DNA of 64,000 nt, taken from Symbiodinium natans. Lineage: Eukaryota; Sar; Dinophyceae; Suessiales; Symbiodiniaceae. Of this stretch, positions 1-64,000 are shown in pieces. Within the stretch, counting starts at the first letter, position 1. Every line of letters starts with the position of its first letter. Below the pieces are notes generated by a model. That model did no database searches and had not been told where the DNA came from. It saw only the letters and a list, made by a program, of their open reading frames with translations. The stretch lies in contig CAJNDS010000058.1 in assembly GCA_905221605.1 (NCBI GenBank), forward strand, positions 873,492 through 937,491. The letters are read 5' to 3'. The translations under genes were made by a program, and so were the position numbers.

Positions 1-398
1 AAAGCCGTGAACCTTTGAAGCCATACCCGAAAGCCTTGCAGGCCCACATTCCTAGAGGCCCTAAACCCTAAACCCTAAACCCTAGACCCTAAACCCTAAA
101 CCCTAAACCTTAAACCTTACAGCCCAAGAGCCCCAAAACCCGAGACCTGCAAACCTATCCTATAGGGGCCTGAATAATTAGAAAGGGGCTTTGGGGGGGT
201 TATTATGATAGAATTACAAAGGGACTCTACTAAGGGACCATAAGGGACTACTATGAGCAACTATTCCGACCCCTATCTATATACATATACACACATGTAC
301 ATATTATGTAAACACCAAACGCCCTGAGCCCGCCTAAACCCTAAACCCTAAACCCTAAACCCTAAACCCCAGAAATCCCTAAACCCCAGAAATCCCCT

Positions 399-467
399 GA
401 GCTGTGCGCAAACTTGAGCAATGCCGCGGCCAACTCTCCGAGCCTTTGCTGGGCTCTTTTGGGGTCT
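399..467 (+). CDS. Exon-like fragment, unknown protein
   Basis: This short open segment lies between a CCCTAAA tract on its left and TTTAGGG on its right. The plus-strand reading begins ELCANLSNAAANSPSL. The minus strand is also open, so the strand is chosen only by the flank pattern seen at better-supported exons. No family is recognised and it could be chance in GC-rich DNA. Confidence 0.22.
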
Positions 468-1202
468 CGGGTTTAGATTTTGGGGTTTAGGGTTTGGGGT
501 TTAGGGTTTGGGGTGTGGGGCTTAGGGCCTTGGAGTTTTGGGTTTGGGGTGGGTTGGGGGGGCTTGGGGTTGGTTTAGGGTCTTTCGGGTTTCGGCCTTA
601 GGGTGTAGGGTCGGGGGCTCAGAGCTTAGGATTTGGGGTTTAAGGTTTGGGGATTAGGGCTTAGGGTCCTTAGGGTGCCTGGGCTCTTTAGGGGTTAGGG
701 TCTAGGGTTTAGGGTTTAGGGTTTGGGGTTTGGGGTTTAGGGTGTCGGTTTTAGGGTTTAGGGTTTAGGGCTTAGGGTGTCGGGTTTAGGGTTTAGGGTT
801 TGGTGTTTGGTGTTTGGGATTTTAAGATTTTGGGTTTGGGTTTTGGGTTTAGGATTTAGGGTTTACGCCTGAGAGCGCCCTGAATGGGGAAACTGTAACT
901 AAACTAAGAAACCATACCAGTTCCTATACATCCAATATCGTGATAACTCAGCTCCTCAGCAGACCAGTTTCGGGAGCCAGAGATTTTCTACGTTGCTCAG
1001 GGCTCAGGGTTTAGGGCGTAGGCCTAAGCCTCAACAGCCTCGCCGCACTCCACCAAACATGACCCTAACCCCAGGTAACCTGCTTCAAACACCAAACCAG
1101 CCCATAAACCCTAAATCCTAAACCCCAAACCCCAAACCCTAAACCCGAAACCCAAAACCCTAAACCCTAAACCTTAAACCCTCAACCCTCAACCCTGAAC
1201 CC

Positions 1203-1623
1203 TGCACCCTGAACCGACCGTAGGCCTCACAAAGGCCAACTTTCTTACCGCCACTCGTGCGCATGAGCCTGTGCTCAAAGATTTTGAGGTGCGACGGGCT
1301 TGAAAGGCCTCCGTGCCATCCGAAAAGGGCTCGGCTAGAAGAGACGCCGAATCTCCGTTGATGAACCAGGCCAGAATCTTGTAACGTACTGGTCTTTTCT
1401 GTGGAACTTGCAGAAATGCATCTTTGATATCAAGTGACCAAATACTCCATCGATTTGCCAATGCCAGAATTGGAATCAGCCTCGTCAACGACGGAGAGGT
1501 AGCTGGGCTGAACACATCTTCTCGTTTCGAGCTGTTGCACTCTCTCGCTACCAATCTCGCTCTTCTTTGCCAGCATCTTCTTGGCTTCAGGACTTCTGGA
1601 GGAACTTCTTGTTGGTTCCAACC
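1203..1623 (-). pseudogene. Copia-type (Ty1/copia) reverse transcriptase fragment
   Basis: Minus-strand translation gives RARLVARE, then FSPATSPSLTRLIPILALA, then IWSLDIKDAFLQVPQ. This is the order of conserved blocks at the start of the RVT_2 domain of copia-type Pol: a lysine/arginine-rich lead into LVAR, the FSP block, and the D-x-K-x-A-F-L motif holding the first catalytic aspartate. The frame opens after a stop near 1624 and no local ATG is needed, so this is an internal piece. No YVDD box, RNase H or integrase follows. Instead the frame runs straight into degenerate CCCTAAA repeats at about 1200. It is a truncated relic embedded in telomere-type repeats. The family assignment is confident; the exact ends are not. 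Confidence 0.72.
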
Positions 1624-1652
1624 CTAAACAAGTCCGAAGAAGTGAACCACAT

Positions 1653-1787
1653 GGTAGTTTCATGGGCCCTGAATATGGTCCCTAACCTCCCTTAAAGGGT
1701 TCTGATGTATGGGCCCCTAATTTGTACAGGGTATGTAAGGGGTACACAAGGGGTACCAGTTTAAGGGCCCAAACTAACCATGAAACG
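1653..1787 (-). mobile_element. Foldback element family G, copy 1
   Basis: The ends are inverted repeats built on GTTTCATGGGCCC on the left and GGGCCC...CCATGAAAC on the right. In reverse complement the interior shares several blocks in the same order with the element at 5235-5360, including TACCCCTTACATACCC and TCAGAACCCTTTAAGGGAGG. The pair are therefore diverged copies of one short non-autonomous element. It has no coding capacity. Confidence 0.6.
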
Positions 1788-1849
1788 ACCCCAAGACTGA
1801 AACCCTGAAGGCTCGGCTATCTAGCCAAAGGCCAGGGTTTGAGTCTTGA

Positions 1850-1959
1850 AGGTTGCCCAGTAACCTAGGATTAAAACGGGTGCCCATTTTTGCTTGAAGG
1901 GGTTCATGAGGGAGCCTAAACCCCCCCAAACGGGAATAAGGGAACTACCTGGGCATCCT
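1850..1959 (+). mobile_element. Foldback element family I, copy 1
   Basis: The ends AGGTTGCCCAG and CTGGGCATCCT are imperfect inverted repeats about 110 bases apart. After the left end, GCCCAGTAACCTA leads to AAAACGGGTGCCC and a T-rich run. The copy at 3828-3941 has the same order. Confidence 0.5.
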
Positions 1960-61975: not shown

Positions 61976-62149
61976 AGCAAGCAACTCTTCTTCGTTCGTG
62001 GAGGCCTTAGCGCCGAAAGTCTACACCCTATTATTTATCCAACATACCATAGGCTGGACCTGGGACTCTCTTTGCCTAGCTTTATGGCTTATACCGTACT
62101 AGTTAAGGGGGAGTTACTACTCAACTTACTGTTGGTTAGCAGGGAATGA
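61976..62149 (+). CDS. Exon-like frame, hydrophobic, unknown protein
   Basis: The plus reading SKQLFFVRGGLSAESLHPII then YPTYHRLDLGLSLPSFMAYT and VLVKGELLLNLLLVSRE. It ends in the left end of a family M element (GTTGGTTAGCAGGGAATGAG). Preceding DNA is AT-rich and ends TCTTAATAG, a possible acceptor. Confidence 0.38.
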   Translation, partial: SKQLFFVRGGLSAESLHPIIYPTYHRLDLGLSLPSFMAYTVLVKGELLLNLLLVSRE

Positions 62150-62208
62150 GGGAATCAGGGCCGTATATATCCCTAAACCCTAAACCCTAAACCCTAAACT
62201 CTAGGTAG

Positions 62209-62268
62209 CTAGAGTCCCAGGGAGGCACCGACCAGCAGGAGTGGCGCAGTGAGGAAGCCTTACCCTGA
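62209..62268 (+). CDS. Exon-like fragment
   Basis: The plus reading LESQGGTDQQEWRSEEALP ends in TGA after a CCCTAAA tract. Very short. Confidence 0.3.
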   Translation, partial: LESQGGTDQQEWRSEEALP

Positions 62269-62506
62269 ACTCAGGGCGCATGTAGAAACCGCGATTCAGC
62301 GGCGCCATGGCACTCTAGGGTTTAGGGTTTAGGGTTTCGGGTTTAGGGTTCAGGGTTCGCTGAGATGGTCAGACTCGAAACCCCACGATGGACTCGTCTC
62401 TGAATTATGGTCCCTGTTCTCTACACCCTGAACCCCACACCCTAAACCCTTTTTGTTTTTTGGGCGGCCCTATGCAAAGCAACATCTGAAACAGAAGAAT
62501 CAACAT

Positions 62507-63190
62507 TCACTGTGAGAACGCCTGGAAAGCCGTGCTGCGGAGGAGCTTCTTGCACGTAGGCAGACCCACTAACCTACTCCAAACTGTGCGACATACTGCC
62601 AGCCTGTGAAGCTGCAAATATGCAAAAGGGTACTCTGGAGGAGGGGCTATGGCCTGTGAGGTGTGGGCGAGCCAATGAAAAGCGAGATCTGTGCATTGCT
62701 CGGCCCAAACAAAAGCACCAGTGAAGCAACAGTTCCTCTCCAGGTTGCTCGGGGATGCTCTCAAAACATGACCAAACAACTTGAGCTGCGCCCTGTGAAT
62801 GTGCTGCGCGGCCAGTGATCGCACACCTGTGTTCGTGACAGTGAGTTGTTGGGGGTTGTCAGTGAGGATCTTGGTGCAGTAGGTGCTGGGTATGCGCTGG
62901 GTTTTTCTGAGGGACTGTGAGTGCAAGGCCTCGAGTCTGTGGAGGTCAGCAGTGGTGATGGCCGCTGACTCCATTCCGTAAGCCAACATTGGGACAAAGA
63001 CCTCATTGTAGATGCGAAGCTTCCATCTCACACGCAGGCCGGTGTGTCTCCAAAACTGATGCAGAGTTTTGAAGTGTTTGCGCGCCTTGGCCAGACGCGT
63101 GGTGACGTCAGTTTTGGAAGCGGAGTCGGAGCGAAGTATCACGCCGAGATGCGTCGCGTGTGTGACAACCCTAAACCCCACAAGCCTCAA
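62507..63190 (-). pseudogene. LINE (non-LTR) reverse transcriptase C-terminal fragment
   Basis: About 220 residues on the minus strand. Near the start, ATHLGVILRSD matches the Y/H-L-G-v-x-L block that follows the RT palm in LINE elements. Next come KARKHFKTLHQFWRHTGLRV and KLRIYNEVFVPMLAYGMESA, the usual thumb region in which a new strand's primer is held. Further blocks are HRLEALHSQSLRKTQRIPST and HIHRAQLKLFGHVLRA. The catalytic YxDD box and the endonuclease are absent: the 5' end is cut at a CCCTAAA tract (about 63170), giving MRLVGFRV as repeat-derived residues. It ends at TGA in unique DNA. A dead, 5'-truncated copy. Confidence 0.78.
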
Positions 63191-63355
63191 CTCGAAACCC
63201 TAAACTCCTATAAACCCCTAAGCCCTAAATCCCTGAAACCCCAAAAAGTCCCACTAAACCCTAAACCCCGATACATCCCTAATTCCCTAAAGCCCCATCG
63301 AATCCTTGAACCCTCTTCCTAGCACCCTAGAAATTCCCCGGAGGCCCCTAAAACG

Positions 63356-63660
63356 TCGAAAGGCGGAGGTGCCCCCTAAACCCCTAAATCCCTAAACCCC
63401 AAACACCCTAAAGCCCCCTAACACTCCTAAAAACCCCCAAAACCCCCCCAAAACCCCTAAAAAACCCCTTAAAAACGCTTAAAGACCCCTAAGAAACCCC
63501 CCAAAATCCCCGCAAAAAAAGCCCTAACAACCGCCCAACAAACAAATATTTCCCGACCAGGCGGAGGTGCCCGGACCCGTCGGGGACCTTCCGAGCATGA
63601 AGGGCCTCGTGTCCGCGGCGCGGCTCCTGACCCAGGCCAAGGTTGCCGGAGGAGACCGGG
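63356..63660 (+). CDS. Exon flanked by a duplicated edge
   Basis: The exon (63560-63660) reads AEVPGPVGDLPSMKGLVSAA then RLLTQAKVAGGDR and ends at GTTTCGGGG. Its first bases GGCGGAGGTGCCC (63560-63572) also occur at 63361-63373, on the other side of about 185 bases of degenerate CCCTAAA/CCCCAAA. This looks like an insertion that duplicated the target and now forms an intron ending CCGACCAG. The upstream exon (ACGTCGAAA...) is too short to identify. Confidence 0.48.
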
Positions 63661-64000
63661 TTTCGGGGTCTCTCGGGAGTTTTTTAGGGTTTTAGGGGTT
63701 TTAGGGGTTTCGGGGTTTTTAGGGTGTTTTGGGGTTTTAGGGGTTTAAAGGTTTAGGGTCTAGGGGTTTAGGGTCTTTCAGGGCTTTTTAGGGTGTAGGG
63801 ATTTAGGGGTTTAGGCGGTAGTTTAGGGGTTTAGGAGGAGTTTTGGGGGTTTAGGGGCTTAGGGTTTTTTAGGGTTTTTAGGGAATATTACTTTTTTGAG
63901 GGCTTGGGGTGTTTATAGGGTTTAGGGGGTTAGGGGTTTAGGGGTTTTGGGGTTTTGGAGTTTGGTGTTTAGGGCTTAGGGGTTGAGGGGTGTTTTGGAT
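63661..64000 (+). repeat. Degenerate TTTAGGG tract
   Basis: Loose TTTAGGG/TTTTAGGGG/TTTCGGGG units without clean periodicity. It continues to the window end; no gene seen. Confidence 0.85.

Follow-up and report, generated by a model that had tools for sequence, protein, structure and literature searches.

What determines the orientation of telomere-type repeats beside exons, and do introns bounded by such repeats constitute a class of their own? The question is raised by a 64,000-nucleotide stretch of DNA (G000:C58:873492-937491, here the window), which lies at 873-937 kb of a 1.12-Mb contig in a genome of 759,417,921 bases and 2543 contigs with dinoflagellate-type introns. An earlier note on this DNA had proposed that exon-like pieces are flanked in a fixed orientation by CCCTAAA on the left and TTTAGGG on the right, that the right-hand tract begins GTTTAGGG and thereby supplies a GT donor, and that the intervening introns are inverted repeats. 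With TTTAGGG tracts termed + and CCCTAAA tracts - (on the sense strand where they are beside introns), the bias of tract orientation with respect to exons is genuine and strong close to splice sites, + tracts following donors and - tracts preceding acceptors. The telomere-type tract is itself not the splice site, as none of 84 homology-placed introns starts with GTTTAGGG, and the inverted-repeat description is true of a minority, 7 of 112 introns having both rule-obeying ends.

Orientation of tracts beside splice sites

Introns were placed by homology, the rulers being Prp8 residues from PDB searches and a dynein heavy chain of the same genome (L024, with frames of 926 and 2283 amino acids (aa)). 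The PROCN domain of Prp8, on contig C1079, is in a single 922-aa frame surrounded by many small exons. The custom spliced aligner permitted GT, GC and GA donors and AG acceptors; other site types could not appear. It placed 123 introns in Prp8 and six dynein loci (C72, C545, C1768, C1790, C1831 and C1844), 112 of which were kept (41 from Prp8, 37 from C1844 and 34 from the other loci), with 11 dropped for a flanking exon of <25 nucleotides (nt) or an intron length of 2000 nt or more. Alignment of C1844, with 45 placed introns in 24.6 kb, is less certain than that of Prp8 and included a handful of very small exons, taken out by the filter. A further locus, L022 (C2417), was aligned but excluded from the tally, and C2477 (L036) was used in the comparison of dynein paralogues alone. 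Figures quoted below for 84 introns (donor motif, acceptors and AG runs) rest on an earlier tally of 84/92 introns.

Within 30 nt of the splice sites of the 112 introns, donors are accompanied by 20 + and 2 - tracts and acceptors by 13 - and 1 +, so that jointly 33/36 obey the rule (p 2.3e-7). Counting rule-obeying tracts first, the ratios within 60 nt are 26:3 for donors and 17:8 for acceptors, and within 100 nt 27:5 and 19:15, the acceptor bias being gone by then. By fifths of intron length from the donor end, + to - ratios are 20:3, 14:4, 11:10, 12:11 and 4:13, with the middle of introns unbiased. Of the tracts within 60 nt that obey the rule, + tracts have their starts 3-58 nt past the donor and - tracts their ends 5-56 nt short of the acceptor, and the closest + tract to any acceptor is at 23 nt. 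Without filtering, the 123 introns give 22:2 at donors and 13:1 at acceptors within 30 nt; Prp8 alone (41 introns) gives 12:2 and 7:1. The bias is stable under two other settings of the tract caller and, when only exact repeat units within 40 nt are counted, is 17:2 at donors and 16:3 at acceptors. The 42 tract-free introns of 100 nt or more have no matching skew. After masking, tract-bearing introns retain some excess of G and T near the donor (0.14 and 0.14) that looks like decayed tract. The proposal of a fixed orientation stands beside splice sites and is not borne out over the window as a whole, where the order of tracts is random.

The splice sites are diverse. Donors are GC in 54 introns, GT in 32 and GA in 26, and exon position +1 is G in 93/112. 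As a putative target-site duplication, this G and the G at the intron start, the latter imposed by the aligner, were viewed over all 112 introns together and look no different from what the usual AG|G rule gives. Non-GT donors and AG|G acceptors are features of dinoflagellate spliceosomal introns, for which GC and GA donors besides GT are reported, as here, in the available part of a review (PMC11453091). At acceptor position -3 of the 112 introns there is T in 4, C in 48, G in 42 and A in 18; with T so rare there, TTTAG|GG is not a favored acceptor. Neither a pyrimidine tract nor a branch point at a fixed position stood out in 84 introns. Tracts are present in 50/112 introns and lacking from 62, and those that bear them are longer (median 399 versus 128 nt).

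Tracts, exon-sized gaps and coding potential

Genome-wide, the 21-mer (TTTAGGG)3 has 1,185,204 forward and 1,184,385 reverse overlapping matches (2.37 million), versus 41 and 33 for the same 21-mer read backwards. In the window there are 856 TTTAGGG/CCCTAAA units where 33.9 are expected, and a Viterbi caller that allows imperfect repeats yields 259 tracts amounting to 13,286/64,000 bases (20.8%); three first-order Markov resamples of the window gave 7, 6 and 1 short tracts. Over the whole window, tracts follow one another in random order (-- 62, -+ 67, ++ 63, +- 66). One 8-kb section, 13217-21289, is without any telomere-type tract; it contains repeated DNA in blocks at 16364-16751, 17148-19113 and 19524-20925. 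A phage collection searched with one 541-base query gave no match.

Gaps of exon size, 60-130 nt, make up 39/67 of the CCCTAAA-to-TTTAGGG intervals of the window versus 35/191 in the other three orders (p 4e-9). In 211,621 bases that include the Prp8 and dynein loci, gaps of 61-130 nt number 64 for -+, 27 for +-, 16 for ++ and 25 for --, and those of >300 nt are 39 for +- and 17 for -+. Abutting pairs (5 nt or less apart) in the same bases number 17 for +- and 14 for -+, with no clear enrichment.

A codon model, for which long Prp8 and dynein frames from this genome were the training set, was used to score coding potential, and a segment was counted as coding-like if it scored above its own Markov resamples at p 0.05 or less. 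This applies to 22/76 of the -+ segments and 10/131 of those in other orders (p 9e-5) when the window is taken together with 14 loci including Prp8 and dynein; for the window alone, the counts, derived from rounded fractions, are about 10/48 versus 1/75. In an ab initio variant, coding-like segments in the window and ten other loci were chosen blind to tracts and the nearest tract within 80 nt was recorded. At a score of 8 or more (79 segments) tracts downstream are 17 + and 8 -, and those upstream 14 - and 9 +, which is the same direction but weaker; at a score of 10 (37 segments) the rule-obeying ratios are 8:3 downstream and 6:6 upstream.

Selection on splicing as the probable filter

We somewhat favor the view that arrays land in both orientations and that their persistence next to a splice site is determined by splicing. 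The genome, nuclear and of dinoflagellate type, is peppered with TTTAGGG arrays on a very large scale. They would have arrived either way round, perhaps through telomerase at breaks, capture of telomeric DNA or expansion, and purifying selection on splicing would purge those that disturb the nearest splice site. Near an acceptor, UUUAGGG would supply many AG|GG and G-run decoys, and near a donor CCCUAAA would supply pyrimidine-rich, branch-point-like ones; the permitted orientations may even help splicing. The inverted-repeat appearance of some introns would then follow secondarily from two rules, each concerning one end and largely independent of the other. Location of the bias at splice sites, with none in mid-intron or window-wide, fits an RNA-level effect of splicing that filters arrivals of both orientations, and its loss in mid-intron, together with the lack of an excess of head-to-head pairs, argues against an insertion mechanism with a polarity of its own.

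Several observations sit uneasily with selection of this kind. Two genes, Prp8 and the C1844 dynein, supply 46/50 of the tract-bearing introns (23 each), and the other loci only 4/34. The acceptor-side bias is non-significant at 60 nt (17:8, p 0.11), and that on the donor side extends into the second fifth of introns (14:4), further than expected for a short-range effect of a splice site. In the 62 tract-free introns, isolated 6-mers resembling the telomere repeat are off-rule, with 2 + and 8 - in the first half and 6 + and 15 - in the second. The ab initio comparison is only 14:9 on its upstream side at the lower score and even (6:6) at the higher. The run free of AG ahead of the acceptor is short, with a median of 11 nt in 84 introns, and in 8/10 introns with a - tract beside the acceptor it is 17 nt or less, so that simple protection from extra AGs cannot fully explain the acceptor side; an AG-exclusion zone as the full explanation was rejected for this reason. 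The evidence is also the DNA of one genome.

The genome amounts to a natural splicing experiment, with one 7-nt repeat present in both orientations in huge numbers and its survival near splice sites seemingly dependent on orientation and distance. The RNA sequence tolerated at each distance from a donor or acceptor can be read from DNA alone, in a species whose splice signals are weak. A question that this raises is by what route a dinoflagellate-like genome was filled with telomere repeats.

Alternative explanations

A possible though unlikely alternative is that the tracts are recruited splicing signals, with G-runs downstream of the donor and a C/U-rich, CUAAA-bearing tract upstream of the acceptor defining introns whose own donor and branch-point signals are weak. 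G-run enhancers and pyrimidine and branch signals act in splicing, and the bias is located at splice sites in the order expected of them. Weakness of the introns' own signals is suggested by GC or GA donors in 80/112 and by the lack, in the 84 introns, of evident pyrimidine tracts and fixed-position branch points mentioned above. However, the 62/112 introns that do without tracts have the same types of splice site, and CCCTAAA does not fit the branch-point consensus, yUnAy, exactly.

An introner-like class of introns, in which telomeric terminal inverted repeats pair to bring the donor next to the acceptor and might also confer mobility, is rather improbable. In its favor, tract-bearing introns are longer, and a + tract is ahead of a - tract in 14/112 introns with the reverse in 5. 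The seven introns with both rule-obeying ends fold (ViennaRNA) so that 42-83 pairs join the first 150 nt to the last 150, a range for which there was no shuffled control. Yet rule-obeying tracts are near the donor in 26 introns and near the acceptor in 17, each end taken singly, for which independence would give 3.9 introns with both; the seven found are barely above this (Fisher p 0.07; for the two genes rich in tracts, 0.23). A single orientation is present in 35 of the 50 tract-bearing introns and the 62 others have no tract at all, so the intron class with inverted-repeat telomeric ends that the earlier note envisaged does not emerge. Nor is sequence shared beyond the ends: comparison of the 112 introns after masking of tracts gave only 7 hit lines from 6 intron pairs, and an introner with a shared body was rejected for lack of common sequence. 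In the comparison of dynein paralogues 12 intron positions are shared versus about 8 expected from shifted positions, and an attempt to follow loss or gain of tracts at shared positions was dropped, the sharing not being clearly above chance. The precedent is from Amoebophrya, whose introners, in the part of the account available (PMC7789003), have inverted repeats of 8-20 nt and direct repeats of 3-5 nt and form sequence families. In them, as in some introns here, complementary ends could bring exon boundaries together; in contrast, the tracts here are tens to hundreds of nt long and mostly one-ended, with no shared body.

A stronger proposal about function, that telomeric arrays are working parts of intron recognition, has in our estimation little probability. 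Each array would aid the spliceosome, UUUAGGG downstream of the donor and CCCUAAA upstream of the acceptor, and where both are present they would fold the intron into a hairpin. TAG acceptors (T at -3 in 4/112) would be avoided so that the abundant TTTAG|GG sites stay unspliced. If true, telomere DNA would shape the splicing code genome-wide.

The chance is slimmer that the polarity is mutational, with telomerase healing both ends of breaks within introns, TTTAGGG growing outward from each exon before the ends fuse. Tracts at both exon edges are oriented as on a telomere-capped end, and a Prp8 exon whose start and end recur as truncated copies beside arrays is suggestive of break or template-switch repair. 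Against this, an excess of abutting TTTAGGG/CCCTAAA pairs is predicted and 17 versus 14 were found, and bias should be kept in mid-intron where the ratios are 11:10 and 12:11. Healing and fusion as the sole cause was rejected since abutting head-to-head pairs are not clearly enriched. As to the exon concerned (C1079, minus-strand coordinates about 15800-15840 and 16559-16590 of the joined L010 and L011 stretch), its first ~32 nt, with the acceptor, are copied upstream, the copy ending at a CCCTAAA tract; its last ~25 nt, with the donor, are copied downstream, after a TTTAGGG tract.

That the whole is an artefact of composition, aligner or sampling, for which dominance by two genes, use of one genome and inference of splice sites by a custom aligner could be cited, is very improbable and largely refuted by survival of the bias through filters and caller settings, by the absence of skew in tract-free introns and by agreement of the coding-potential test in the window and other loci.

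Relation to known repeats and introns

Interstitial telomeric repeats are telomere-motif arrays located elsewhere than at chromosome ends, and the arrays here, inside contigs, resemble them; they differ by their scale, their location in introns and an orientation tied to splice sites. Primate Alu and L1 elements have an orientation bias in introns, since the other orientation disturbs RNA processing. There too one orientation is retained, and here the orientation follows the gene strand near splice sites (33/36). In contrast to Alu and L1, the orientation favored here is opposite at the donor and acceptor ends of an intron, and the element is an array of a 7-nt telomere unit and not a transposon. 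TTTAGGG is reported as the telomere repeat of other dinoflagellates in the available part of the review cited above (PMC11453091), which does not mention telomeric tracts in introns. A limited literature search, in sources partly accessible, brought up no account of splice-site-oriented telomeric arrays, from which absence from print is not claimed.

Features of the window

All eight pieces originally listed as plus-strand exons do lie between a left-hand CCCTAAA and a right-hand TTTAGGG tract, the segments between tracts being 91-123 nt. In two of them the minus strand has the higher coding score. The first, 2546-2656 (NLFNKKYNVNVPLGIIADPSQKPLSWEW; no Pfam match), between a CCCTAAA tract at 2438-2545 and a TTTAGGG tract at 2657-2745, scores 10.7 on the minus strand versus 6.7 on the plus, and that at 43282-43395, also without a Pfam match, 12.8 versus 8.7. 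The piece at 26430-26532, on the plus strand, has no Pfam match, those at 32002-32124 and 42266-42357 have weak coding scores, and the remainder are at 10790-10899, 51791-51905 and 61109-61199. Expectation of a mirrored arrangement for minus-strand exons was a logical slip: CCCTAAA-exon-TTTAGGG is its own reverse complement, and exons of either strand must therefore show the same arrangement. The region given as an instance of mirroring, 8722-8907, is within a 308-nt segment (8724-9031) that has TTTAGGG on its left and a 13-nt CCCTAAA tract on its right; it breaks the rule, and its coding-like frame is on the plus strand (6.6). Conversely, 12900-13000, cited as an exception, contains a segment at 12913-12999 that is flanked by - and + and follows the rule, with its best frame on the minus strand (score 10.5).

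Among other plus-strand segments with the same flanks, a strong one is at 23548-23652 (QDKHMIDQLVAAQPGGFEQVNVYLTQEPMA; score 15.1), with further examples at 55576-55686 (12.9) and 59717-59845 (14.8), none with a Pfam match. Pfam searches of 10 short window exons gave only one match, a weak one to Ank, and there was none for the joined exons 50221/50861 or for one single piece. The Ank match is to the second part of a plus-strand repeat, at 54521-54598 (E 0.033 alone); the first part, 54291-54395, has no match alone. Joined by hand in a plausible phase, the two reach 26.2 bits, over the cut-off of 21.1 (E 8.8e-6). The first part is preceded by a CCCTAAA tract at 54239-54290 and followed by a TTTAGGG tract at 54396-54472, and the ankyrin repeat appears to be split by an intron starting at or near the latter.

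Additional ankyrin repeats are at 57290-57598, upstream of a 253-aa open frame with a GNAT acetyltransferase domain (58237-58995, plus strand; E 1e-9). An open frame at 39957-40520 on the plus strand has RCC1-type repeats (AFAAILGDGSVVTWG-like; RCC1_2, E 3e-12), and on the minus strand a copia-type reverse transcriptase-like fragment is at 1216-1623 (RVT_2, E 7e-4, below the curated cut-off).

Elsewhere in the genome, the dynein paralogues differ extremely (L024 compared with L023, L026, L027 and L031-L033), and one dynein has a 3242-aa open frame, 2283 aa of it read, behind a frame of 926 aa; another, at C1844, has the 45 placed introns noted above. At least 11 copies of U1 small nuclear RNA are over the Rfam cut-off, e.g. 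G000:C479:105124-105282. The 5′ end of the two copies read, ACTTACCTG, looks conventional, although most donors here are GC or GA.

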